From: a virus | DNA length: 21,286 bases | Virus record (IMG/VR): IMGVR_UViG_3300033064_007027 | Span: 1 to 21,286 of that record | Strand: one strand, 5' to 3' | In this document: piece after piece, positions 152-20,677 of the stretch | How positions within the stretch are numbered: position 1 is the first letter of the stretch | How the letters are laid out: each line of letters begins with the position of its first letter | The notes under the pieces: generated by a model | Told to the model about the DNA's origin: nothing | Seen by the model: the letters and a program-made list of their open reading frames with translations, nothing else | Database searches by the model: none | Made by a program: the position numbers and the translations under genes

Positions 152-3124
152 ATGTCCGACGTATCGCTGGGCTCAGGCACAGACCGCCGCCGCGGGACGG
201 TCTATCCGTCACCGTTCTTCGACGTCGCGCAGACGTACATGCCGCCAACAGTCAAGGAACTGTTCCGGTGGTGCACCTACTTCTTCTACAAGGATCCAAT
301 GATCGGGTCGGTGGTCACCAAGATCGCCGAGTACCCCGTCACCGACTTCGTCTACAACGCCGACGAGAAGCACATCCGCGACGGGTGGAAGGAGTTGATG
401 GAGGACACCCTCAACCTCAAACCCTTCCTGATCGAGCTCGGCCTCGACTACTTCTGCTTTCACGGCGACACGAAGGTCACTACGAAGCAGGGAGTATTCA
501 AACTTCGAGACATCGTGGGCCAGAAGCTCGACGTCCTGTCCCAGGACGGTGCTTACCGGCCCGCGGAGTTCAAGTCCTTCGGGCGCCAGAGGCTGCTCGA
601 GGTCGAGTTCCATGACGGCCGGACCGTTCTGGCGACCCCGGAGCACCAGTGGGTTGTCACAACCTCGAACGGGAAGGACATCCGCGTTCCAACCACGGAG
701 CTCGAAGGCCGACGCATTCCTCGGAATGTTGCCCCTCGGCCAGAAAGGAACGACGAGTACCACGAGGGCATCCGCCACGGTTTCGTCTTCGGGGATGGCA
801 CTACCTACAACGACGGCAAGCAGTGCCGCGCGTATTTCTATGGAGATAAAGATCTCCAGATGGCGAAGTTTTTTGAGGGCTGTGGGTCACCTCTTATCGA
901 GGGATCTGGCGGCGCTTGGATGATTCACGGACTGCCTACGCATTATAAGTTGCTACCCGAGGCGACCAAATCCGCTAGCTACTGGTACGGCTTTGTTAGC
1001 GGATTTTTGGCGGCCGACGGGTGCGTTGACGCTAACGGATGCGCCGTCCTCACGCAGAAGGCCAGGGCAACGCTCGAAGCCGTCAGCGACCAGTTCCCTC
1101 GCATCGGCATGATTGCCGGCAAGGTCCGTGGGTACGCGCGAGAGACTTCGTTCGAGTACGGAGACAAGACCTACTCCTACGAGGGGGAGGTGCACTATCT
1201 CTCGATGTTCAAGCAGTACCTGCTTCCTCAGGATTTCCTGCTAACGCATCACCGCCAGAACTTCGAACAGAACTTCAAGCCAGGCAAGTACGGGTCGTAT
1301 GCTCACGTTCGGGCGGTTCGTGAGACCGGCATCGTTGATGAGGTTTTCTGTGGCGTCGAGATGGAAACGCACACGCTCACCATCGACAACGGCATCCTGA
1401 CGGGCAACTGCTACGGCAACGCGTTCGTCTCCATCAACCTCCCCTTCGTCCGCTGGTTGCAGTGCGCGAAGTGCGGGGAGATGCACCGCCTGTCGAACCC
1501 CGACGTCGTCTTCAAGTTCCAGAACTTCGGGTTCAACCTCACGTGCAAGATCTGCGATTCCACGGGGACCGCGAAGATCGTCGACAAGCCTCTGCACGAC
1601 CGCTCGGGCATCAACTTCGTCCGCTGGGATCCGAAGAACATCGACATCTACTACAACCCGATCACGGGTCGCTCGAAGTACCGCTACAAGATCCCCAACA
1701 AGATCCAGAAGGCCATCCAGCAAGGTGTTCGGGAGATCCTCGTGGATATCCCAGAGATCTTCCTCCAGGCCCTCAAGCAGAAGCGTGACATCGCGCTGTC
1801 CGATCAGAACCTGTTCCACTTCAAGCGTCCCACGCTAGCCGAAGCGGACATGGGCTGGGGCAAGCCGCTGATCATCCACTCGATGGGGCGGATGTTCTAC
1901 CTGTACGTGCTGCGCCGCGCCCAGGAGGCCATCGCCCTCCAGCGGATCATGCCGCTCGAGTTCATCTTCCCGCAGGCCAACGCCCAGCAGGATCCCTACC
2001 AGCACGTCAACCTGTCGAGCTGGCAGAGCACCGTCCAGGGCGAGATCCGCAAGTGGCGGACGGACCCGAACTACATCTCCGTCGTTGCCGTTCCGCTCGG
2101 GTTCGAGCGACTCGGTGGCGACGGTCGGGCGCTTCTCCTGGGGCCGGAGATCGAGGTCACGAACAAGGAGATCACGGGCGGCATGGGCGTGCCGCTCGAG
2201 TTCGTGTTCGGCGGCCTGTCCTGGTCCGGGTCCTCGGTCTCGCTTCGTACCCTCGAGAACCACTTCCTCATGTACCGCCGCCTGCTGCTGCGGTTCGTGA
2301 ACTGGGTCAAGAACCGAGTGCGCCTCTACCTCGGCCTCCCTGACGTCGAGATCGGCTTCACCGAGTTCAAGATGGCGGACGACATCCAGCGCAAGCAGCT
2401 CGTCATCCAGCTGAACGCCGCCAACAAGATCTCCGATCACACGATGCTGACCGAGCTTGGGTTCGACTACGACGACGAGCTCAAGATGATCGAGAAGGAG
2501 GCGGAGCAACGCAACCGCATCCAGTCCCTCACCATGAAGTCGCAGACCGAGGCGCAGGGCGAGGCATCAATCCTCCAGGCGAAGTACCAGGCGCGTGCGC
2601 AGGAGGCCATGAACGAGGCCATGGGCGCGCAGTCCGGTGGCCAGCCCGCTCAGGGCGAGCAGGGCCAAGGCCAGACCGCTGAAGGCCAGCAGGGCCAGCA
2701 GGATCAGGCGCAGGGGCAGGGTGCCCCGCAGCAGGGGCAGGGGCAGCAACAGGCACCGGCCAGTGGGCCGACGCCGGACCAGATGGCCGCCGATCAGCAG
2801 ATGGGCCAGCAGGGCGGGCAGGGCCTCGCAGCCCAGCAGCAGGCGGCCGTCGAGGGTGAATCTGGAACCCAGGCCGGCGGCCAAGCCGTCGAGCTCGACG
2901 CCTCGCGCGTGGCGAGGCAGTGGGCGAACCGCATCAAGGATCTCCCGCCCGACCAGAAGATGGCGGTCCTGGGAGATCTTCGATCCAAGATGCCGAACAT
3001 GGCCCGCCTGGTCGACCAGCTGCTGTCGCAGATGCAGGGTGGCGAAACCGTCGGGGAATCCATGGAGCGCGCCAAGCCGCTTCCCCAGAACGCGCCACCG
3101 CGGCGTAACGCGGGAGTCGTCTGA
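152..3124 (+). CDS. Portal protein precursor interrupted by an intein
   Basis: This 990-residue precursor should become about 672 residues after the intein (residues 102-419) is removed. The portal is the dodecameric ring at one head vertex through which DNA is packaged and ejected. Portal-like features include the early helical region, the conserved YGNAF motif straight after the intein, and a long helical core (about residues 570-800) followed by a disordered tail. A four-cysteine site at C438, C441, C465 and C468 looks like a zinc ribbon inserted in the N-terminal part. Residues of about 823-910 are a Gln/Gly/Ala-rich low-complexity stretch, and a short helical domain closes the protein. 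The ATG follows an AAGG at 142-145. The TGA overlaps the next ATG. The portal call rests on the family-like pattern and phage context, not on a search. Confidence 0.8.
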   Translation: MSDVSLGSGTDRRRGTVYPSPFFDVAQTYMPPTVKELFRWCTYFFYKDPMIGSVVTKIAEYPVTDFVYNADEKHIRDGWKELMEDTLNLKPFLIELGLDYFCFHGDTKVTTKQGVFKLRDIVGQKLDVLSQDGAYRPAEFKSFGRQRLLEVEFHDGRTVLATPEHQWVVTTSNGKDIRVPTTELEGRRIPRNVAPRPERNDEYHEGIRHGFVFGDGTTYNDGKQCRAYFYGDKDLQMAKFFEGCGSPLIEGSGGAWMIHGLPTHYKLLPEATKSASYWYGFVSGFLAADGCVDANGCAVLTQKARATLEAVSDQFPRIGMIAGKVRGYARETSFEYGDKTYSYEGEVHYLSMFKQYLLPQDFLLTHHRQNFEQNFKPGKYGSYAHVRAVRETGIVDEVFCGVEMETHTLTIDNGILTGNCYGNAFVSINLPFVRWLQCAKCGEMHRLSNPDVVFKFQNFGFNLTCKICDSTGTAKIVDKPLHDRSGINFVRWDPKNIDIYYNPITGRSKYRYKIPNKIQKAIQQGVREILVDIPEIFLQALKQKRDIALSDQNLFHFKRPTLAEADMGWGKPLIIHSMGRMFYLYVLRRAQEAIALQRIMPLEFIFPQANAQQDPYQHVNLSSWQSTVQGEIRKWRTDPNYISVVAVPLGFERLGGDGRALLLGPEIEVTNKEITGGMGVPLEFVFGGLSWSGSSVSLRTLENHFLMYRRLLLRFVNWVKNRVRLYLGLPDVEIGFTEFKMADDIQRKQLVIQLNAANKISDHTMLTELGFDYDDELKMIEKEAEQRNRIQSLTMKSQTEAQGEASILQAKYQARAQEAMNEAMGAQSGGQPAQGEQGQGQTAEGQQGQQDQAQGQGAPQQGQGQQQAPASGPTPDQMAADQQMGQQGGQGLAAQQQAAVEGESGTQAGGQAVELDASRVARQWANRIKDLPPDQKMAVLGDLRSKMPNMARLVDQLLSQMQGGETVGESMERAKPLPQNAPPRRNAGVV
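455..1408 (+). other. In-frame intein with LAGLIDADG homing endonuclease, inside the portal gene
   Basis: The intein is 318 residues, precursor residues 102-419. It starts at Cys102 (CFHGDTKV, block A) and ends with GILTGN, followed by Cys420 as the first C-extein residue. Block B is visible as TPEHQWVV with His165. Two LAGLIDADG-type motifs are present, around GFVFGDGT (Asp215) and GFLAADGCV (Asp289), so a homing endonuclease domain is probably present. Block F reads ETHTLTIDNG. The usual penultimate His is Gly418 here. Excision would restore DYF-CYGNAFV, a conserved portal motif. The central part uses more A/T-ending codons than the flanking exteins, consistent with separate acquisition. 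Confidence 0.93.
2621..2884 (+). repeat. Gln/Gly-rich low-complexity tract in the portal C-terminus
   Basis: Irregular repeats of CAG, GGC and GGG codons encode a run dominated by Gln, Gly and Ala, about residues 823-910 of the portal precursor. Units resembling cag-ggg-cag recur without a fixed period. The segment is predicted to be disordered and to link the portal core to a short C-terminal helical domain. Slippage-driven length variation between relatives is likely. Confidence 0.75.
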
Positions 3125-5351: not shown

Positions 5352-5430
5352 CTGGGGATTCCTTTGACGAGTCGAAATCGGTGGTTACGGGTAAGATCCT
5401 TCTCAGTCCTCTTATGCCGGTGGTGCCCTA
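5352..5430. promoter_or_regulatory. Divergent intergenic region upstream of the RNA polymerase gene
   Basis: This is the only gap between a minus-strand gene and the polymerase gene, so it must hold control signals for at least one of them. TTGACG occurs at 5364-5369, and another at 5338-5343. A TAAGAT at 5392-5397 resembles a -10 box, but the spacing to the nearer TTGACG is 22 bases, too long for a normal sigma-70 promoter. A five-codon frame (ATG at 5414, TAG at 5429-5431) overlaps the polymerase GTG as TAGTG and could be a leader. No firm promoter is identified. Confidence 0.3.
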
Positions 5431-8400
5431 GTGACCCAGACGACCCCCTTCGACCACGTCAGCCAGTTCGAGAAGATCAAGAAGGACGTGATCGCGTCCT
5501 TCACCAAAGCGCTCGACATCCAGGCGACGGGTACCAACCGGAAGATCGTCGTCAGGAACGTCTGGATCGACGACGATAAGGCCCCGGAGGACTGGGAGTC
5601 CCAGCGCGATGCCGTCCGCAAGGACAAGACCTGGGGCGTGCCCGTGTACGCCGCGCTGGACTTGGTCGACCGCAAGACCGGAGAGGTCATCTCCTCCACG
5701 AACAAGAAGCTCCTGGCGACGCTGCCCAAGACGACCGACATCGGCAGCTTCATCGTCGAGGGCAAGCACTACCAGGTCCAGCACCAGCTGCGTCGCAAGC
5801 CCGGGGTCTACATCGCCCAGAAGGAGAATGGGGAGATGAAGACCGAGGTGAACATCGCCCGGCAGCCGTTTGACATCACGTACGACGCCAAGAAGGGCAT
5901 CTTCAAGCTCATGCGCGGCACCCAGGATGGGTCCGGCGTCGCGCTCTATCCCATCCTGTCCCGGATTGGTGTCTCGGACTCGGCCATGGCCAAGGCCTGG
6001 GGGGCGGACGTCCTGGCAGCCAACAAGGCCGTGAATGAGAAAAACTCCACCAGCGCCGTGCTCAAGGCCGGGGAGTACTTCACCAAGTCCAAGCACGATT
6101 CGCCCGACGCCGCCGCCAAGGCCATCGCCACGTTCTTCGAGGACGAGACCGAGGTCCGCCCCGAGGTTACCAAAGCGACCATCGGCAAGGCCTTCACCAA
6201 GGTCGGCCCCGAGATGCTGCTCAGCGGCACGACCGAACTGCTCAAGCTCGAGCGCGGCGAGCGCGACGCTGATGATCGCCATGCCCTCGAATTCAAGAAG
6301 GTGATGAACCCTGGCGACCTGATCAACGAGCGCATGGTGCAGAGCAGCGGCGAGCTCGCCGAGTCCCTCTCCAAGCTGCGGGTGAAGATCGGCTACCGCT
6401 TGAACGATCGCAAGTCGGTCCCCAACGACATCGGCAAGTTGATCAACTCGAACGAGCTGAGTGGGGTGTTCTCGACCTTCTTCACGGGGTCGTCGCTGTC
6501 CAACACCACGGACCAGACCAACCCGATCAACATGATCAACGGGTCGTCGAAGATCACGATTACCGGCGAGGGCGGCGTCCAGGACGAGCGCGCCATCTGG
6601 CAGGAGGAGCACACCCTGCACCCATCGCACATGGGCTTCATCGATCCGATCCACACGCCCGACGCGTCCACGATCGGCATCTCGCTGAACCTGCCGATCG
6701 GTTCCGCAAAGGAGGGTGATAGCCTGCAGGCCAAGATCCTTGACGTCCGCACGGGTGCGGAGCGCATGGTCGGGCCGGCTGACATGCGCGAAATGACGGT
6801 TGCCTTTCCGGATCAGTACAAGGATGGCAAGCCGATCAACGCCAAGGTCAAGGCGATGGTGAAGGGCGAGATGCAGATGGTGAAGGCCACGTCCGTGGAC
6901 GCCGTCATGCAGACGTCGCAGCAGGCGTTCTCGATGGCGACCAATACGATTCCGTTCCTGGCGTCCATTCAGGGCGTCCGTGGGCAGATGGCCACGAAGA
7001 TGATCGAGCAGGCGCTGCCGCTGACCAACAGGGAGGCTCCGCTCGTCCAGGTCAAGGTCGGGAAGGGGACGATCGAGGATGCGATCGGTTCAAAGTTCTC
7101 GGTCGCCGCCAAGGCGGATGGCGTCATCGAGAAGATTGACGCCAAGCGGATCACGATCCGCACGGCCGACGGCCTCGTCGAGCAACCCCTCTATGACAAC
7201 CTGCCCCTGAACGGCAAGTCGTTCCTGCACTCGGATACCGTGGTCAAGGTCGGGGATGCCGTGAAGAAGGGGGACATCCTCGCCGACTCCAACTTCACTG
7301 ACGGCGGCACGCTGGCCCTGGGGACGAACCTTCGCGCCGCGTACATCCCCTACAAAGGCTACAACTTCGAGGACGGCATCGTCATCACGGAGTCGGCGGC
7401 CAAGAAGCTCTCGAGCGAACACCTGCACGAGCACGCCCACTCGATCGACAAGGGCGACGTGTCCTCGAAGGGGGACTACCTGGCCTGGAACTCCACCAAA
7501 CTGTCGCCCGAGCAGCGCGACATGCTCGACGACGATGGCGTGGTCAGGAAGGGGCAGATCGTCAGCAAGGGCGATCCGCTGTGGGTCGGCACCCGCGAGA
7601 ACAAGTACGACGCCGAGTACCTGGCCTTCAAGAAGATTGCCCCCAAGACGACGCCGCGCCGCGGGCACATGGAGGAATGGTCCAACGATGCCTCCGGGAC
7701 CGTCGTGGACGTCGTCAAGGAAGGCAAGAAGGTCAAGATCTACGTCAAGACCGAGGAGCCCGCGCAGATCGGCGACAAGATCACGAATCGCCACGGCGCG
7801 AAGGGCATCATCACGAAGATCATTTCCGACGGCGAGGCCCCCTACACGCAGAACGCAGACGGGACCTCCGCCAAGGTCGACATCCTGCTGAACCCGCACG
7901 GCATCGTCACCCGCATGAACCCGTCACAGATCCTCGAGACGGCCGCCGCCAAGCTGGCCGTCAACAAGGGCTCCGCCTACATCGTCGACAACTTCAATGG
8001 CCAGGACCACTCACGGGCGATGATCGACGAACTGGCCGTCAACGGCGTCTCTGATACCGAGACCCTCTACGATCCTCACAGCAAGGATGCCTTGGGCGAG
8101 GTCCTCGTCGGTCCCCAGTACGTGCTCAAGCTCGCCAAGCAGGCGACCTCGCAGTTCTCCTCGCGCGAGTCAGGCGCCTACGACATCAACAAGGCCCCCA
8201 TGCGCGGCGGCGAGGACGGCGCCAAGGCGCTCGACCTGCTGGCGTTCTACTCGATGCTCTCGCACGGCAGCCGCGCCAACCTGCGCGAGATGGCTACACA
8301 CAAAGGATCCCAAAACGAGCACTTCTGGAACTGGCTGGCCGCCGGCCACAAGAGCGGCCAGGTCGCACCGGCGCCACAGCCAACGTTTGCATACAAGAAG

Positions 8401-11400
8401 TTCGAGGCATACCTGAATGGCGCGGGCGTAAACACCAAGCGCAACGGATCCAAGAACATCATCCAGCCGATGACCGACAAGGAGGTCGACCTGCTGAGTT
8501 CGGGAGCCATCAAGGACCCGGTCTTCGTCCGCGCCAAGGACCTGTCCGAGGAGCCGGGCGGGCTGATGGACACGCAGATCTTCGGAGGGCGGCTTGGCGA
8601 TCGATGGGGGCACATCGAGCTCGCGGAGCCCATCGCCAACCCGGTCTTCGAGCAGCCGATCAAGAAGCTCACGGGGATGAACGCGACGCAGTACGCCGGC
8701 TTGGTCAAGGGCAACCTGTTCGTGGATCCGGAGACTGGGGAGTGGGCGGAGCAAGGGTTGACGGGCGGCGAGGCGTTCAAGAAGAAGCTGGGGATGATCG
8801 ACGTCGACGCCGACATCAAGGCCTGGACCGACAGGGCCAAGACGGCCAAGACGGCCCCCGCGCTCGACGACGCGAACAAGCGCCTGAAGTACCTCCACGC
8901 CCTGAAAAAGATCGGCATCCGCCCTGAGGACGCCTACGTCCAGACCAAGATCCCGGTCATCCCGCCGCAATTCAGGCAGATCAACGAGACGGACGACGGC
9001 CAGATCTCCAACGCGGGCCTGAACACGCTCTATCGCGACGTCAGCCTCGTCAGCAACGAACTCGCTTGGCAGAAAACGATCCCGTACATGCCCGAGGGCG
9101 CGAAGTCCGAGCTCCGGCAGAACCTCTACGACGGCATCGCGGCCATCTACGGGATCGGCGACCCCATCGCAAAGTACCCGAAGACCCGCATGCCCCGCGG
9201 CATCATCGACCAGATCAAGGGCGAGAAGGCCGCCAAGGAAGGCTTCTTTATCAACAACGTCCTGCGACGCAATCAGGACTACGTGGGTCGCGGCACCATC
9301 ATCCCTGAGCCAAAGCTGGGACTCGACGAGGTCGGGCTCCCCGAGGAGATGTCCTGGAATATCTTTAGACCGTTCGTGATCCGGCGCCTGGTGAACTCGG
9401 CCGGCAAGGATCCGGTGCAGGCATCCAAGGAGTACGACGCGCGCACGCCGACCGCACGCGCAGCGCTCGTGGCCGAGATGGACGACCACCCCGTTCTCCT
9501 GAACCGCGCCCCCTCGCTGCACAAGTTCTCGATGATGGCCTTCAAGCCGACGATCACCGACGGCAAGGCTGTCAAGATCCCGCCGCTGGTCGTCAAGGGG
9601 TTCAACGCGGACTTCGATGGCGACGCCATGACCGTCCACGTCCCCATCCTGCCGGACGCGATCGAGGAGGCCAGGCGCATGCTGCCATCCAGGAACCTCT
9701 ACAACCCTGGCACCGGGCAGATCATGATGCAGCCCCAGAACGAGGCAGCGCTGGGGCTCTACCTGATGTCCAGGGATCCGGCCCAGAAGGGCAAGATCGC
9801 CGACGCCTTGCCAGAGTCCATGCGCGAGCAGTTCGCCGACGTCGAGCTCAACAAGCATGGCCTCAAGGCCCTGACCACGACGCTCGCCGAGACGATGCCG
9901 CGGGACTATGGCAAGGTCCTCGACAAGCTCAAGCAGGCCGGGGAGGAGCACACCTACCGCACGGGGTTTACCGTGAGCATGAAGGACCTGGTCCCCGATC
10001 TGCCCGGGAGAAGAGACATGTTCCGCCGCACCAGCGAGGCACTGGGAAAGATCGACCTGACCTCACGCGTGGGCCGCGAGGAGGGTCGAGCCGTGACGGC
10101 GGCGGCAAACATCGAGCATGACGCCATCGTGAAGAACGGGCTTAAGGGTCAGGCCAATAGCCTGGACCTCATGGTGCAATCAGGCGCCCGCGGCAACGCG
10201 AACCAGCTCAAGCAGACGCTCTCGACGCCGTTCATGGTCGACGATCATCGCTCACGGCCGTCGCCGTTCCCGGTCATGAACTCGTTTGCGGAGGGGCTGC
10301 CGTTCTCAGACTACTGGAGTACGCTCTACGGCGCACGGGCGACGGCGGTCGACAGGCAGCTCCAGACAGCCAAGCCCGGTGAGTTCAACAAGGACATCAT
10401 GGCGACAGCGATGACGACGGTTGTCGCCGCGGCGGATTGCGGCACGCGCATGGGGCTGGACGTGCGGGTCGAATCCGCGGACGCCGAGGACCGCTTCTTG
10501 GCCAAGGACATCTCCGTCAAGGGAGACGTGATCGCGCACGCAGGCAGCCAGGTGACGTCGACGCTGCTCAGCACGTTGCGCAACGCCAAGGTGGCGACCG
10601 TGGACGTGCGCTCACCGATCACCTGCAAGCTGCCCAAGGGCGTCTGCGCGAAGTGCTATGGCCTCGACGAGCATGGCGGTCTGCCGGCGATTGGCGACAA
10701 CGTCGGCGCGACCTCGGGCCAGGCGATGTCCGAGCCGCTGGTGCAGATGACGATGCGCACGTTCCACTCGGGCGGCATCTCGGGCACGCGCGGCATCGTC
10801 TCGGGCTACGACAAGATCGACAAGCTCCTGAAGATGCCCAAGATCAAGAGCGGGCGCGCGACCCTGTCCCTGGCAGACGGGACCGTCGATAGCGTCACGC
10901 CGTCGATTGGAGGCACCGGGCAGGACGTCAAGATCGGGTCCAAGACCCACTACATCTCCAACGACCTCTGGGACTCCAAGCGCGTGCACGTGGGTGCAGT
11001 CAAGCGCAAGGGTGACATCCTGTCCGGCGGCATCGCTCAGCCCAACGAGCTCGCGGACCTGAAGGGGATGCGCAGCGCGCAGGAGTACCTAGCCGACGAG
11101 ATCCAGTCCGCCTACCAGAGCCAGGGCGTTGATATCAAGCGCCGCGCGATCGAGACCGTCGTGCGTGCCGTGGGCAACACGACCAAGATCATCGACCCAG
11201 GAGATAGCGCCTTCATCTACGGCGACACCGCCCCCTGGACGGTCGTCGAGGACTTCAACAGCAAGAAGCTGGGGAAGAAGTCCTTGCGGGATGCGCATGG
11301 GTTTTCCCTGCAGGAAGACGCTGGTGGCGTCTCCAGGGGGACCGTCATCGACGATCGGGTCCAGCGCCTGCTCGAGAAGAGCGGCCTGACCAGCGTCGAG

Positions 11401-11640
11401 ACGGGGAACTCCCCGATCCTGCACCGCCCCTTCCTCAAGGGCATCCAGCAGATCCCGATGCTGCGAGATGACTGGATGAGCCAGATGGGCTACCGCGAGC
11501 TCAAGGACGCGATCGTCGAGGGTGCCGCCCGTGGCGCCGAGTCAGACTTCCACGGCTACTCGCCCATTCCTGGATTTGCGTACGGCGCGGAGTTCGGCGA
11601 AGATCCGGACGGGCGATCGCTCACCGAGGGTGTCTACTGA
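5431..11640 (+). CDS. Fused beta / beta-prime DNA-dependent RNA polymerase
   Basis: The 2069-residue product transcribes DNA. Residues 1 to about 1010 match bacterial beta (RpoB). These include a lobe segment ending RRKPGVYI, the DQTNP rifampicin-region loop at Asp361, GYNFEDG with Glu647/Asp648, and GDK...RHGAK with the two conserved lysines Lys783 and Lys791. The C-terminal clamp segment (GSRANLREMA) is also present. Residues from about 1011 match beta-prime (RpoC): RWGHIEL at about 1058, a VDYSGR-like DYVGRG, NADFDGD with catalytic Asp1394, Asp1396 and Asp1398, the bridge-helix region, and the QMTMRTFHSGG trigger loop (1772-1782). The second zinc site is conserved (Cys1670, Cys1732, Cys1739, Cys1742), but the beta-prime N-terminal zinc ribbon is missing. 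Both halves are shorter than cellular subunits. The start is GTG with a weak GGTGG upstream. No alpha, omega or sigma gene is seen here. Confidence 0.97.
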   Translation: MTQTTPFDHVSQFEKIKKDVIASFTKALDIQATGTNRKIVVRNVWIDDDKAPEDWESQRDAVRKDKTWGVPVYAALDLVDRKTGEVISSTNKKLLATLPKTTDIGSFIVEGKHYQVQHQLRRKPGVYIAQKENGEMKTEVNIARQPFDITYDAKKGIFKLMRGTQDGSGVALYPILSRIGVSDSAMAKAWGADVLAANKAVNEKNSTSAVLKAGEYFTKSKHDSPDAAAKAIATFFEDETEVRPEVTKATIGKAFTKVGPEMLLSGTTELLKLERGERDADDRHALEFKKVMNPGDLINERMVQSSGELAESLSKLRVKIGYRLNDRKSVPNDIGKLINSNELSGVFSTFFTGSSLSNTTDQTNPINMINGSSKITITGEGGVQDERAIWQEEHTLHPSHMGFIDPIHTPDASTIGISLNLPIGSAKEGDSLQAKILDVRTGAERMVGPADMREMTVAFPDQYKDGKPINAKVKAMVKGEMQMVKATSVDAVMQTSQQAFSMATNTIPFLASIQGVRGQMATKMIEQALPLTNREAPLVQVKVGKGTIEDAIGSKFSVAAKADGVIEKIDAKRITIRTADGLVEQPLYDNLPLNGKSFLHSDTVVKVGDAVKKGDILADSNFTDGGTLALGTNLRAAYIPYKGYNFEDGIVITESAAKKLSSEHLHEHAHSIDKGDVSSKGDYLAWNSTKLSPEQRDMLDDDGVVRKGQIVSKGDPLWVGTRENKYDAEYLAFKKIAPKTTPRRGHMEEWSNDASGTVVDVVKEGKKVKIYVKTEEPAQIGDKITNRHGAKGIITKIISDGEAPYTQNADGTSAKVDILLNPHGIVTRMNPSQILETAAAKLAVNKGSAYIVDNFNGQDHSRAMIDELAVNGVSDTETLYDPHSKDALGEVLVGPQYVLKLAKQATSQFSSRESGAYDINKAPMRGGEDGAKALDLLAFYSMLSHGSRANLREMATHKGSQNEHFWNWLAAGHKSGQVAPAPQPTFAYKKFEAYLNGAGVNTKRNGSKNIIQPMTDKEVDLLSSGAIKDPVFVRAKDLSEEPGGLMDTQIFGGRLGDRWGHIELAEPIANPVFEQPIKKLTGMNATQYAGLVKGNLFVDPETGEWAEQGLTGGEAFKKKLGMIDVDADIKAWTDRAKTAKTAPALDDANKRLKYLHALKKIGIRPEDAYVQTKIPVIPPQFRQINETDDGQISNAGLNTLYRDVSLVSNELAWQKTIPYMPEGAKSELRQNLYDGIAAIYGIGDPIAKYPKTRMPRGIIDQIKGEKAAKEGFFINNVLRRNQDYVGRGTIIPEPKLGLDEVGLPEEMSWNIFRPFVIRRLVNSAGKDPVQASKEYDARTPTARAALVAEMDDHPVLLNRAPSLHKFSMMAFKPTITDGKAVKIPPLVVKGFNADFDGDAMTVHVPILPDAIEEARRMLPSRNLYNPGTGQIMMQPQNEAALGLYLMSRDPAQKGKIADALPESMREQFADVELNKHGLKALTTTLAETMPRDYGKVLDKLKQAGEEHTYRTGFTVSMKDLVPDLPGRRDMFRRTSEALGKIDLTSRVGREEGRAVTAAANIEHDAIVKNGLKGQANSLDLMVQSGARGNANQLKQTLSTPFMVDDHRSRPSPFPVMNSFAEGLPFSDYWSTLYGARATAVDRQLQTAKPGEFNKDIMATAMTTVVAAADCGTRMGLDVRVESADAEDRFLAKDISVKGDVIAHAGSQVTSTLLSTLRNAKVATVDVRSPITCKLPKGVCAKCYGLDEHGGLPAIGDNVGATSGQAMSEPLVQMTMRTFHSGGISGTRGIVSGYDKIDKLLKMPKIKSGRATLSLADGTVDSVTPSIGGTGQDVKIGSKTHYISNDLWDSKRVHVGAVKRKGDILSGGIAQPNELADLKGMRSAQEYLADEIQSAYQSQGVDIKRRAIETVVRAVGNTTKIIDPGDSAFIYGDTAPWTVVEDFNSKKLGKKSLRDAHGFSLQEDAGGVSRGTVIDDRVQRLLEKSGLTSVETGNSPILHRPFLKGIQQIPMLRDDWMSQMGYRELKDAIVEGAARGAESDFHGYSPIPGFAYGAEFGEDPDGRSLTEGVY

Positions 11641-13492: not shown

Positions 13493-13918
13493 TCAGAACG
13501 GGATGTCGTCGTCGGAGGCAGGCGCACTGGGCGGTTGCTGGCCGCCATGGTGCCCATGACCCTGATCATCCTCGCCGCGGTCCTTGCTGCCGCCGAGGAA
13601 CTTGAAGTCCTTGCCACGCACCGACGTCCGGTACCGCTTTACCCCATCCTTGTCGTCGTAGGTGCGGGTCTGGGTCTCGCCCCGCGCCCACATCAACTGC
13701 CCCTTCTTCGCGTACTTGGGCAGGATCTCGGACGGCTTGTAGCTCTGGGTGTCCCAGAAGTTGACCTCGAACCACTCCGTTCGCTCCTGCTTGTTCCCAT
13801 CCTTGTCCTTCCACTTCTCGCTCGTGGCGATGGACAGGGTGGTGACGGTGCCGCTCCCGACGCTCTTGACCTCGGGATCCTTGCCGAGATAGCCGATGAC
13901 TGTCTGCTCGTTGAACAC
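13493..13918 (-). CDS. ssb: Single-stranded DNA-binding protein
   Basis: The 141-residue product starts at GTG 13918, with AAGGAG (13930-13925 on the minus strand) six bases upstream. Residues 1 to about 110 form an OB-fold of the bacterial SSB type: an early VIGYLGKDPEVK strand, then TLSIATSEKWKDKDG, WFEVNFWD, and a GKDFKFLGG closing strand. A disordered Gly/His/Gln/Pro linker leads to the acidic tip DDDIPF, the peptide that recruits replication and repair partners in SSB proteins. It coats single-stranded phage DNA during replication and recombination. It is the first gene of a two-gene minus-strand operon and is transcribed divergently from the structural gene at 13951. Length is slightly below that of the E. 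coli protein. Confidence 0.95.
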   Translation of the reverse strand: MFNEQTVIGYLGKDPEVKSVGSGTVTTLSIATSEKWKDKDGNKQERTEWFEVNFWDTQSYKPSEILPKYAKKGQLMWARGETQTRTYDDKDGVKRYRTSVRGKDFKFLGGSKDRGEDDQGHGHHGGQQPPSAPASDDDIPF

Positions 13919-13950: not shown

Positions 13951-14988
13951 ATGCTGACCTTCGAAAGCCTTATGCCGGGAATGTGGGTAGGATGGGGTGT
14001 GAACAACGGCTTTTGGCATGGCGAGGGACTGCCCACAGGGAAGATTCTGTTCGGGACCATCGGCGAAGAGACCCCAACCAAGACCACTCCTCCCAAGGGA
14101 TCGGGGGTCTACGAGTTCACCTCCAGCTGCGGCATCGTGGTGTACGACGCCCACATCCTGAGCGCGGATGCCGACACGAAGGGTGGGGGTGATCACGCCC
14201 GTCCTCGCCCGGGATCGACCTGCATAGCCGTCATGACCACCAACGGGGCCCAGTGCTTCATCATTGGGTTCTTGCGCTCACCTATCTTCGACGACAACTC
14301 AGACGACCCACCCACAGTGGGAGCGCCCGCGGACAGCAGCACCACCGGCGATAAGGTCTACAAGACCGCCGGAGGCGCCACCCTGCTCCTCAAGCGTGGC
14401 GGGGCCGTCATCCTCGAGGGAGGCGCCGGCGCCAGCGTGCTTCTGAACCCGATCAATAACCAGATGTCCCTGCGGGCGTCGAACCTCCGGCAGAACGCGG
14501 ACGGCTACCTTGCCCGACGAGGTCGGGTCGCGCCGGGCTCGACCGACACGCCGACCACGCACGAGGAGACGTTTCTGCATCAGGTCGGACCGACCTACGA
14601 CCGCTTCCGGCTGCGTCACGGAACCCTCCCGGGTGACGCCCGCCGCCAGCTCGAGCTCTCGGCGGTGAGGGTCGCGGGCGGCCGCGAGACGGCGACCGTT
14701 CAGACGCGCGAAACCTACCACGCTGACGGTCACTGGGTCGGCGAGGGGCCGAAGTACCAGTGGGGTGGTGCAGATGCCAACGAGCCCGCAGTGCTCGGGC
14801 ATGCGCTGGTCGAGGCCATCTCGAAGTTGATCGACATCGTTGCGCAGCTCAAGGTGGGGACGGCTTGGGGCCCATCCACGCCGCCGCTGCCACCAACGAC
14901 GGTGGATCTGGCGCAGCTCAAGGCCGAGCTATCTGATAAGATCCTGTCGACGTTTGCCTTCTTCGCCAAGAAGCCAGCCGATCTCTGA
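13951..14988 (+). CDS. Baseplate/spike-like virion protein
   Basis: The 345-residue product starts MLTFESLMPGMWVGWG. It has an N-terminal beta-rich domain ending near RPGSTCIAVMTTNG and FIIGFLRSP, which resembles the OB-fold found at the start of baseplate spike and gp5-type proteins. The middle has short alternating strands (TAGGATLLLKRGGAVILEGG) like a beta-prism or helix shaft. The C-terminal part has a helix (ALVEAISKLIDIVAQL) and a Pro-rich linker. Such proteins sit at the tail tip and help puncture the host envelope. The call is from pattern resemblance and phage context only. The ATG at 13951 lacks a strong ribosome binding site, so an internal start at residue 8 or 11 is possible. The stop overlaps the next start. 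Confidence 0.55.
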   Translation: MLTFESLMPGMWVGWGVNNGFWHGEGLPTGKILFGTIGEETPTKTTPPKGSGVYEFTSSCGIVVYDAHILSADADTKGGGDHARPRPGSTCIAVMTTNGAQCFIIGFLRSPIFDDNSDDPPTVGAPADSSTTGDKVYKTAGGATLLLKRGGAVILEGGAGASVLLNPINNQMSLRASNLRQNADGYLARRGRVAPGSTDTPTTHEETFLHQVGPTYDRFRLRHGTLPGDARRQLELSAVRVAGGRETATVQTRETYHADGHWVGEGPKYQWGGADANEPAVLGHALVEAISKLIDIVAQLKVGTAWGPSTPPLPPTTVDLAQLKAELSDKILSTFAFFAKKPADL

Positions 14989-18008: not shown

Positions 18009-18893
18009 GTGCGGTACCCGTATGAGCGCTTTCTTCGGTTCCTGGTCTCTCGCAAGGTCGATGTAAATCGAACGATGGATCAGGTGGGCCTCCCACCTGT
18101 CGGTGGGCTGTGGTCCGCGACATGGCGCAGCGCCATGCGCAAGAGCGCACCCTACGCACTGATCCGCCACCTTGACGCAACGGAGGAGCGCCTCCCAACC
18201 CGCGAGGGCGTTCTCGCATGGGCGGAGCGCGAGGGCCTCCGTGAGCTCTGGGATGCGCAGCCCGAGTTCGGCTGCGTGACCCCACCCGAACTCGACACCG
18301 CCTGGCGCATCTTTGCCAACCACGGCACGCGGGCGCGCATGGGGCTCCTCTTGTTCTCCAGGGCTGGCATGGCCGAGATCGCCGAGGTTGCGGCTGCGCA
18401 CCTTGAGGTGGAGATCGAGGAGAGCGGGGTAGAGCTCTATCGCCGCATCTTCTGGGATGCGAGCGAGATGACCCGCAGCGACTGGACGCTGCTCATGGAG
18501 CAGCTCAAGACCAAGGAGGAAAAGCACCACTTGGCCCTCGGGTTCGAGCACCCGACCCTCGATAGCGTGCGGCGCACCCTGGGAGGTGAGGTCACGGTCG
18601 AGCCTGATGTCGTGCTGAGGCGGCTGATGACCAGCGCGCTGGAGCAATACGATCTCGCGATGAAGCTGCCACTCCCGTCGGCCAATGACGTATTCAAGTG
18701 GGGCGAGATGGCCAAGTCCTCCGCCGTGGCGCTCGCCGCCCATCAGCCCAAGAAGGTCGAGTCGAACTCGATCCCGAAAGACTTCAACGGCCTGTTCTCG
18801 GTGCAGGTCTCCAAGTCCAAGCACATCTCGCTGGCGGACCTGCAGGGGCAGGTCGGGATCCCTGAGCCTGCGAAGCCCGTCGAGGATCCGTGA
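18009..18893 (+). CDS. Possible small terminase subunit or packaging-associated protein
   Basis: The 294-residue product probably starts at GTG 18009. No strong ribosome binding site is seen, and an ATG at 18075 (residue 23) is an alternative. A predicted helix-turn-helix-like segment occurs at about residues 115-155 (RAGMAEIAEVAAAHLEV followed by a YRRIFWD helix), a pattern seen in small terminases that recognise the packaging site. Further helices follow, and the C-terminus is a Lys/Ser/Pro-rich tail. The gene ends in a TGATG overlap with the large terminase, the usual position of the small subunit. It is longer than most small terminases and no family match is certain. It could instead be a head-completion or regulatory protein. 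Confidence 0.5.
   Translation: MRYPYERFLRFLVSRKVDVNRTMDQVGLPPVGGLWSATWRSAMRKSAPYALIRHLDATEERLPTREGVLAWAEREGLRELWDAQPEFGCVTPPELDTAWRIFANHGTRARMGLLLFSRAGMAEIAEVAAAHLEVEIEESGVELYRRIFWDASEMTRSDWTLLMEQLKTKEEKHHLALGFEHPTLDSVRRTLGGEVTVEPDVVLRRLMTSALEQYDLAMKLPLPSANDVFKWGEMAKSSAVALAAHQPKKVESNSIPKDFNGLFSVQVSKSKHISLADLQGQVGIPEPAKPVEDP
18081..18137. repeat. Cluster of inverted repeats near the start of the gene before the terminase
   Basis: CAGGTGGG (18081-18088) pairs with CCCACCTG (18092-18099) around three bases. CCCACC (18092-18097) can alternatively pair with GGTGGG (18102-18107), so the two hairpins exclude each other. CATGGCGC (18121-18128) and GCGCCATG (18130-18137) form a near-perfect palindrome. 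Three such elements within 57 bases of coding DNA are unusual and could be a binding or packaging site, or an RNA switch. Confidence 0.55.
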
Positions 18894-20677
18894 TGGACGA
18901 GCTCGTTGAAGGGGGCGAGGACCTCGCTCTCGATGCCGACCCGTTCGACTTCACGGGCCGGGAGATCGATCCGCCCAGCTTCTCGAACGACGTGAAGTGG
19001 AACGGCGAGTACGACTGGGAGGGTCGCCTTGAGCACGTGGACATCCCCGGCAAGGAGCGCGCGACCTACCGAGGGCGCAAGAGCGACATCGCCCAGGCGG
19101 TGCTCCATCACCTGGGGCGGCCGCTCAAGCTCGACAACCACGCCTTCATGCTGCCCATCTACAACGATGATGATGAGCGGCTGGTGATGAAGTGTTCGCG
19201 CCAGGTCGCCAAGTCGACGACGGTCTGCAACCTCCAGATCATCGAGTCCATCATCCGCCCGCACTGGCGGTCGCTCTACGTCTCGCCGTCCGCCCTGCAG
19301 ACGCGGCAGTACTCGAACGAGAAGCTCCGTCCAACCCTGATCGACTCCCCGTTCGTCGCGAAGTACCTGTTCGGGAAGGGCGTGACCGACCAGGTCTTCG
19401 AGAAGACGCTGGCCAACGGTTCGTACATCTTCCTGCGGTACGCCTTCCTGACGGCCGCCCGAGCTCGCGGCATCCCCGCCAGCCGCGTGTTCTTCGACGA
19501 GGCCCAGGATCTCCTCAAGGACAACGTCAAGGTGATCAGCCAGTCGCTGTCGGCGTCGCGCCTCGCGATGGGCGTGCCGGGCAAGGAGATGATCACCGGC
19601 ACGCCGCTGACCTTCTCGAATACCCTCGAGGAGTACTGGCAGTGGTCCACCCAGAACGAGTGGATGGTCCCCTGCGACTGTACCGGCGGCGAGGGCGGGC
19701 GGTACTGGAATTACCTCGACGCCCGCAGCATCGGCATGAAGGGGCTGATCTGCTCCAAGTGCGGCAAGGCGATCAATCCCGCCCAGGGCCAGTGGGTCAG
19801 CTTCGCGCCCAAGGAGTTCTACGTCGGCTATCACATCTCGCAGCTGATGGTGCCGTGGAAGCAGTCCGTGGAAGCCTGGCGGACCGAGATCGTCCTGCCC
19901 CACGAGAAGTGGCCCGAGTCCAAGTTCAACAACGAGATCCTCGGCCTCTCGTTTGACAACGCCTCGGCCCCCGTCACCCGCACGGACATCCAGGAGAACT
20001 GCTGGCCGGCCAAGCGCCACGCCGGGATCGACACCCAGAAATTCACACATCGTCGTGGCCCAGCACACCAGGGCCTCCGCATCTTCGCCGGCATCGACTG
20101 GGGCGAGGGTCGCGAAGAAGGCGACGCGAGCTCGGGGCGCAAGAAGTTCGCCTCGTGGACCGTTCTGACGCTCGGCGCCTACGTCAACGACGAGACGTTC
20201 TGGCCGTTCCTGATGAAGCGGTACGTCGGCAAGGACGTCGATCCCGAGCTCATCCTGCCCGACGTCGAGCACGTCTGCGCGCACTGGAACGTCGAGATCC
20301 TCGGCGCGGACTGGGGGCACGGCTGGGGCATGAACAGCCGGCTATTCAAGAGCCGCGGCCGCGCCGGCGTGATGCAGTTCGCCTACTCGGCCAACCTGGG
20401 CGAGCGCAAGCGCTGGGACGCCCAGGCGTACAAGTTCATCATCAACCGCAACGCGGCCATGTCGCAGTTCTTCGGCGACATCAAGCAAAAACATTTCGTG
20501 TTCCCGGAATGGGAGGAGTTCGAGCCGTTCGCCAAGGATATCCTGGCGGAGTACGTGGAGTACAACGACCGGACCCGGACGATGACGTACGATCACCCCA
20601 TCGACCAGCCGGACGACGCCCTCCACAGCATGGTCTATGCGAAGCTGGCGGCAGACATCACGCTGGGGAAATTCTAG
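18893..20677 (+). CDS. Terminase large subunit (ATPase and nuclease)
   Basis: The protein is the motor that pumps DNA into the prohead through the portal and cuts concatemers. The ATG at 18893 (594 residues) is preferred over GTG 18890 because GAGGA at 18882-18886 is then six bases away. The ATPase domain shows a Walker A variant SRQVAKST (Lys107), Walker B VFFDEAQD (Asp202, Glu203) and a coupling-motif-like ITGTPL. A CDC...CSKC cysteine set at about residues 262-287 suggests a zinc ribbon. The RNase H-like nuclease shows GIDWGEG (Asp402), GADWGHG (Asp473) and a C-terminal PDDALHS (Asp574/Asp575). Length is typical of the family. The start overlaps the preceding gene's stop. Confidence 0.95.
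   Translation: MDELVEGGEDLALDADPFDFTGREIDPPSFSNDVKWNGEYDWEGRLEHVDIPGKERATYRGRKSDIAQAVLHHLGRPLKLDNHAFMLPIYNDDDERLVMKCSRQVAKSTTVCNLQIIESIIRPHWRSLYVSPSALQTRQYSNEKLRPTLIDSPFVAKYLFGKGVTDQVFEKTLANGSYIFLRYAFLTAARARGIPASRVFFDEAQDLLKDNVKVISQSLSASRLAMGVPGKEMITGTPLTFSNTLEEYWQWSTQNEWMVPCDCTGGEGGRYWNYLDARSIGMKGLICSKCGKAINPAQGQWVSFAPKEFYVGYHISQLMVPWKQSVEAWRTEIVLPHEKWPESKFNNEILGLSFDNASAPVTRTDIQENCWPAKRHAGIDTQKFTHRRGPAHQGLRIFAGIDWGEGREEGDASSGRKKFASWTVLTLGAYVNDETFWPFLMKRYVGKDVDPELILPDVEHVCAHWNVEILGADWGHGWGMNSRLFKSRGRAGVMQFAYSANLGERKRWDAQAYKFIINRNAAMSQFFGDIKQKHFVFPEWEEFEPFAKDILAEYVEYNDRTRTMTYDHPIDQPDDALHSMVYAKLAADITLGKF

Follow-up and report, generated by a model that had tools for sequence, protein, structure and literature searches.

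A phage gene for a predicted single-chain β-β' RNA polymerase and the phage clade that shares it

Can a phage gene in which the β and β' subunits of RNA polymerase (RNAP) share one reading frame specify a working cellular-type enzyme, and is such a gene exceptional? The question is raised by virus record IMGVR_UViG_3300033064_007027 of IMG/VR, of which positions 1 to 21,286 (a 21-kb fragment) were analysed. We refer to this whole stretch as the window. An earlier note on the window had proposed that one of its genes (Table 1) encodes β and β', in their natural order, as a single complete chain. The frame is open throughout, with 2069 codons and zero internal stops. The Pfam domains Rpb2_3 and Rpb2_6 cover residues 360-926 and Rpb1_1/2/4/5 span residues 1148-1926 of the same frame; note that Rpb1 domains 1 and 4 score under their own cut-offs. 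The top NCBIfam match is the model for the fused β/β' protein of Helicobacter. AlphaFold models of both parts were built with 35 family sequences. The predicted local distance difference test (pLDDT) is 85 for residues 1-1010, and 86 for residues 870-2069, where the predicted template modelling (pTM) score is 0.81. In Foldseek searches of PDB, a check that the earlier note had named, both halves are placed as expected: the first model matches solved RpoB chains (E down to 3e-71, TM score ~0.75) and the second matches solved RpoC chains (E down to 9e-61). Query TM scores of the two models against these chains are 0.7-0.77. We consider it almost certain that the gene product is a cellular-type core RNAP, with two double-psi β-barrels. 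A chance origin of the observation is excluded. Because genes for the portal protein and large terminase subunit share the contig, the RNAP gene is a phage gene. On the phage origin of the gene, the order of the subunits in one frame, and the assignment of the two halves to RpoB and RpoC, the earlier note was right.

Residue conservation was counted over 57 phage enzymes (35 fused and 22 split, as described below) and 24 bacterial enzymes. As previously claimed, the catalytic residues are kept; the aspartate triad of β' and both β lysines are invariant in all 57 phage enzymes. The trigger-loop histidine is present in 34 of the 35 fused enzymes, and the trigger-loop arginine in 14. Alignment also reveals a short form of the β' clamp helices, and a short segment resembling the flap tip can be aligned. 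Judging by its sequence, the fused RNAP is very likely an active enzyme. It is far nearer the cellular enzymes than are those of crAss-like or phiKZ-type phages, again as the earlier note had held, and identity between its family and bacterial enzymes is just 25-29%. Split-type enzymes (L006, L061, L042, and others) often have glycine or alanine in place of the asparagine of NADFDGD, with the aspartate triad retained, and half of them lack the cysteines of the second zinc site.

What, then, is missing from the chain? In the fused group, 59-67 residues separate the landmarks flanking the join, compared to 72-158 in concatenated bacterial sequences. In the alignment, the cysteines of the first β' zinc-binding domain were found in none of the 57 phage enzymes. 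Given this spacing, and the loss of zinc-binding domain 1, the join is where the β C-terminus meets the β' N-terminus, with the next domain gone. Similarly, a search for the α subunit gene (PF01000) found none in 23 records of relatives, and was positive in 13 of 14 control genomes. Hence, the description of the chain as complete holds for the presence of both subunits in one frame, but not for zinc-binding domain 1, missing at the join, or for α, whose gene was not found in the relatives searched. The rifampicin pocket has also changed. In E. coli numbering, the aligned substitutions are Q513N, F514T, H526G, R529K, and S531T. By alignment, most rifampicin contacts are lost and, because these contact positions are altered, the fused RNAP is probably insensitive to the drug.

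The earlier note implied a singular oddity. This was mistaken. Across a large phage clade the fused chain is the norm, and a sister clade shares the β-β' join, with the C-terminal part of β' (β'C) encoded separately. A profile scan gave at least 326 relatives; hence, the family is common. Alignments and trees included 35 distinct fused chains of approximately 2.0-2.2 thousand amino acids (kaa), among them that of the window, from loci fetched in IMG/VR. The unbroken frame occurs in 34 further distinct contigs, at ~32-78% identity to the window RNAP, and near relatives with the same uninterrupted chain are 76%, 64%, and 60% identical. There are two main architectures in the clade: one chain, or a fusion of β to the N-terminal part of β' (β-β'N, ~1430-1530 residues) with the last ~600 residues in their own gene. 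The latter is found in cultured isolates, namely Salmonella phage Arash and Vibrio phage D69. In a third architecture (L192 and L193), the β frame has ~1136 codons and β'N is a separate gene for 389 residues, which may be one more step of gene fission. Both loci came from a search for separate-subunit relatives in IMG/VR, with Cobetia and Rhizobium β' queries, which for the most part returned additional members of this family, or fragments. In five loci (L040, L094, L096, L097, and L098) the RNAP chains are 350-950 residues over the usual length, 2.4-3.0 kaa overall, and probably contain inteins. Two others (L073 and L085) have a longer β'C, probably also with an intein.

Relationships were examined using a tree of concatenated β and β' (1966 columns, LG+F+G4, 57 taxa) with bacterial references, and without archaeal sequences or those of the mReC phages described below. 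Phage enzymes split from the bacterial references with an ultrafast bootstrap of 100, the split-β'C group is a clade with support of 100, and the fully fused group has moderate support of about 80-90; note that rerooting calls for caution in interpreting these labels. The deep-branching L045 shifts position between tree analyses. Since the β-β'N join is common to fused and split groups, the tree indicates that it is old. Subsequently, β'C may have split off or may have been added, and the tree is compatible with either. The fused RpoBC of Helicobacter (L133) nests within the bacteria and, on this placement, is a fusion independent of that in phages.

It is quite possible, although we lean slightly against it, that the window RNAP belongs to the published mReC lineage, in which β and β' were handled as two subunits and the fusion went unnoted. 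This is a question of filing, and compatible with the mechanism proposed below. The mReC phages are tailed phages with cellular-like β and β', whose RNAPs form a clade apart from those of cells (Weinheimer and Aylward 2020, PMC7481178), as do those of the window family. They derive from the same data source, IMG/VR, and the criteria used to define them (both COG matches, at least 800 residues, and NADxDGD) would admit fused chains. However, all mReC major capsid proteins are Gp23 (PF07068), and their Pfam-matched terminases are all PF03237, also reported as VOG01069 (PMC7481178). In the window family, Gp23 was found in none of 21 records, many of them incomplete. A gpA-type terminase (PF05876) fits 18 of the 21, and PF03237 is over cut-off in three. 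Gp23 is found in the Cobetia and Rhizobium phages, in which β' is separate. The text of the mReC paper describes no β-β' fusion (PMC7481178). Note that it is the published description of mReC, rather than mReC sequences, that sets the window family apart.

If the enzyme is active, where might it start transcription? The DNA directly 5' of the RNAP gene is weakly conserved, save for two short blocks. The block CTTATGCC has 30 copies in three near-relative contigs, all on the RNAP strand. It is the most strand-biased 8-mer there (30 versus 0; the next best has p ~1e-5). Read on the opposite strand, the block is GGCATAAG, a form of a family-wide promoter-like motif, G(G/T)(T/C/G)ATAAG or near GGYATAAG. 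It is present repeatedly in most genomes of the family, and the RNAP and structural genes are mostly on the other strand. Contigs bearing the motif are G001, G004, G006, G008, G013, G014, G016, Arash, and D69. Variants are GGTATAAG (Arash, G008, and G016), GTTATAAG (D69), GGGATAAG (G013), and GTCATAAG (G014). Across nine genomes, most copies are on the strand opposite RNAP. Downstream, position 13 is a pyrimidine and position 14 a purine in 148 of 192 copies (77%, nine genomes); on the RNAP strand this holds for 28 of 63. In 96 of 131 cases, both a Shine-Dalgarno sequence and a start codon follow within 60 nt, versus 42 of 131 in the other orientation and 12-20% at random. The pattern was not found in two phages with separate-subunit RNAPs. 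The motif, a new observation of the present analysis, looks like the promoter of the gene arm opposite the structural genes, with its ATAA core at about -11 to -8. That CTTATGCC might be a promoter of phiKZ-late-like type, serving the RNAP gene, was rejected because all copies are on one strand and the reverse complement carries the Shine-Dalgarno and start signature. A single-strand nick signal like that of T5 was set aside on the same grounds.

We propose that the fused gene yields an active single-chain core RNAP of a large tailed-phage clade. The covalent β-β' link would take over the role of assembly, so that no α dimer would be needed. A sigma-like factor, phage-encoded in several relatives, would then steer the core to GGYATAAG promoters and these would drive the arm opposite the structural genes. 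Packaging of the RNAP in the virion, leading to early transcription, is a putative further step that would fit because the RNAP gene sits in the head-gene module. Taken as a whole, we consider this proposal of an active α-less core, sigma-directed to GGYATAAG and fitting virion packaging, evenly balanced between right and wrong. Matches to sigma region 4 occur in 12 of 21 records (8 of them over cut-off); 6 of 23 records match region 2. There was one β match per genome in 14 records. In the near relative G001 (L214:11020-11508, minus strand), a protein of 162 residues has region 4 only of sigma, and a stretch containing cysteines; it is a candidate minimal specificity factor. That the fused RNAP may be the reader of the motif is suggested by analogy. 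The early promoters of jumbo phages that are ascribed to the virion RNAP carry a conserved motif with its centre near -10 (PMC7598289) and, in the window, RNAP is encoded among head genes. On this analogy, recognition of GGYATAAG by the fused RNAP is a tentative assignment that falls just short of an even chance, and packaging of the enzyme in the virion is doubtful. A full account of the lineage, in which an α-free single chain lacking zinc-binding domain 1 would be carried inside the virion and, helped by a minimal sigma4-like factor, would make early starts at GGYATAAG on the opposite arm, we regard as unlikely.

Several observations weigh against our proposal. For some relatives no sigma gene was found, although most of the contigs are incomplete. 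Two contigs that carry the family RNAP are poor in the motif, with few copies in G015 and no standout copies in G017. No promoter for the RNAP gene itself was found. The ATAA core resembles a bacterial -10 box, so the motif could be read by host RNAP carrying a sigma factor of either host or phage origin. The G017 contig (L061) has a split RNAP and lacks the ATAAG motif; the word with a strong strand bias there is GGCACGCT (44 versus 8).

An alternative is that the fused RNAP is a non-virion enzyme, produced in the course of infection, for the late genes of its own strand, and that the GGYATAAG promoters are early or middle ones served by host RNAP with a sigma factor of host or phage. We find this possible but rather less than probable. 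It would explain a -10-like motif on the strand opposite the structural genes, and some family phages do encode region 2 sigma factors that might act on host RNAP. Conversely, motif positions equivalent to sigma70 T-12 and T-7 are variable or G, no TTGACA-like -35 element is seen (only A-richness near -33), and the motif tracks the phage family across hosts as unlike as Salmonella and Vibrio. None of these three points is decisive. A further alternative, that one phage recently acquired an independent host rpoB-rpoC fusion, is very improbable and refuted by the tree. Although bacterial β and β' genes are usually adjacent in the same order, and Helicobacter provides a natural fusion, the phage enzymes are one clade apart from all bacterial references, the Helicobacter fusion is inside the bacteria, and identity to bacterial enzymes is low. 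In a host and prophage scan, among the matches listed, the best 80 genome contigs carry the bacteria's own rpoB and rpoC, and the single fused one is Helicobacter. Two records deposited as phage, MT836236 (human-faecal, L009) and OR844998 (Staphylococcus phage record, L184), have bacterial-type rpoB and rpoC and are probably contamination. Finally, a frameshift or assembly artefact fusing two genes, or the sequencing error at the join that the earlier note had raised, is ruled out, because the same continuous frame is found in the 34 other contigs and the join is an alignable conserved stretch.

The closest known systems are Arash (OQ632216) and Vibrio phages D69, D148, and D181. These share with the window the clade, the β-β' join, the lack of zinc-binding domain 1, a portal gene just upstream, and a gpA-type terminase. 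The upstream portal is annotated in Arash and inferred from position and length in D69. Arash and D69 also share the promoter-like motif with the window family. Unlike the window, the C-terminal third of β' is a separate gene in these phages, identity over β-β'N is 32-33%, and AADYDGD replaces NADFDGD. In the literature searched, we found no paper on Arash. The virion and non-virion RNAPs of phiKZ and AR9 (PMC7598289, PMC13282480) resemble the window family in having no α and in providing phage-owned transcription. However, their β and β' are split into at least 4-5 polypeptides, they are far more divergent, and each phage has two enzymes, whereas the window RNAP is one chain. A 2026 review of jumbo phages still describes the phage core enzymes as made up of four or five polypeptides at the least (PMC13282480). 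The crAss-like, YonO, and P23-45 enzymes (PMC7481178, PMC10770324) have both catalytic barrels in one chain, as does the window RNAP. Even so, crAss-like RNAPs are too divergent for the COG0085 and COG0086 hidden Markov models, and the P23-45 virion enzyme is fused to the tail tape measure. Helicobacter RpoBC has β then β' in one chain but is an independent bacterial fusion of 2.9 kaa. In the literature searched, we found no paper describing a single-chain β-β' fusion of this phage family.

Features of the window are listed in Table 1. The portal gene has an intein, absent from the homologues in L001-L004, of which that in L001 has 658 residues, and apparently present in L005 (983 residues).

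Table 1. Coordinates of the RNAP gene, its landmarks, and other features of the window.
Feature	Position	Strand	Basis and remarks
Portal protein gene with intein (residues ~102-434)	152..3124	+	PHROG portal; TIGR01445 intein N-terminus
Promoter-like motif GGCATAAG	5411..5418	-	Just upstream of RNAP gene, divergent; small frame with Shine-Dalgarno next
Single-chain RNAP, β and β' fused	5431..11640	+	2069 residues, GTG start; open reading frame, Pfam/NCBIfam, Foldseek
β (RpoB) part, residues 1 to ~1002	5431..8436	+	AlphaFold model of 1-1010; Foldseek to RpoB chains
β catalytic lysines K783 and K791	7777..7803	+	Invariant in fused (35), split (22), and bacterial (24) enzymes
β/β' join, residues ~1003-1012	8437..8466	+	Alignment; Cys4 β' zinc-binding domain 1, normally next, absent
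β' (RpoC) part, residues 1013-2069	8467..11637	+	AlphaFold model of 870-2069; Foldseek to RpoC chains
NADFDGD (residues 1392-1398), Mg-binding Asp triad D1394/D1396/D1398	9604..9624	+	Triad invariant in all groups
Bridge-helix region	10303..10404	+	Alignment; helix in AlphaFold model
Second β' zinc site, C1670, C1732, C1739, C1742	10438..10656	+	Each Cys present in 32 of the 35 fused chains
Trigger-loop segment (R1776, H1779)	10720..10770	+	His in 34 and Arg in 14 of the 35 fused chains
Single-stranded DNA-binding protein gene (ssb)	13493..13918	-	Pfam SSB, PHROG 44; 3' of promoter-like motif
Promoter-like motif GGCATAAG	13969..13976	-	Upstream of ssb, ~50 nt before ssb GTG
Large terminase subunit, gpA type	18890..20677	+	Pfam GpA_ATPase, PHROG 675

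Known multisubunit RNAPs of phages are mainly the fragmented, divergent enzymes of jumbo phages, or divergent single chains. On the sequence comparisons made here, the window RNAP belongs instead to a broad, barely described phage family, and is not an isolated curiosity. The clade, its sister clade with one more gene break, and the cultured isolates Arash and D69 make it tractable to ask how such enzymes come to be split or fused. The same material suits the question of how a bacterial-type core assembles without α. Furthermore, a promoter-like signal common to genomes of the clade makes steering of the enzyme directly testable. If the motif is read by the fused RNAP, the family would provide a self-contained core that is encoded by one gene and has a known target sequence, which would be of use in biochemistry and in orthogonal expression.

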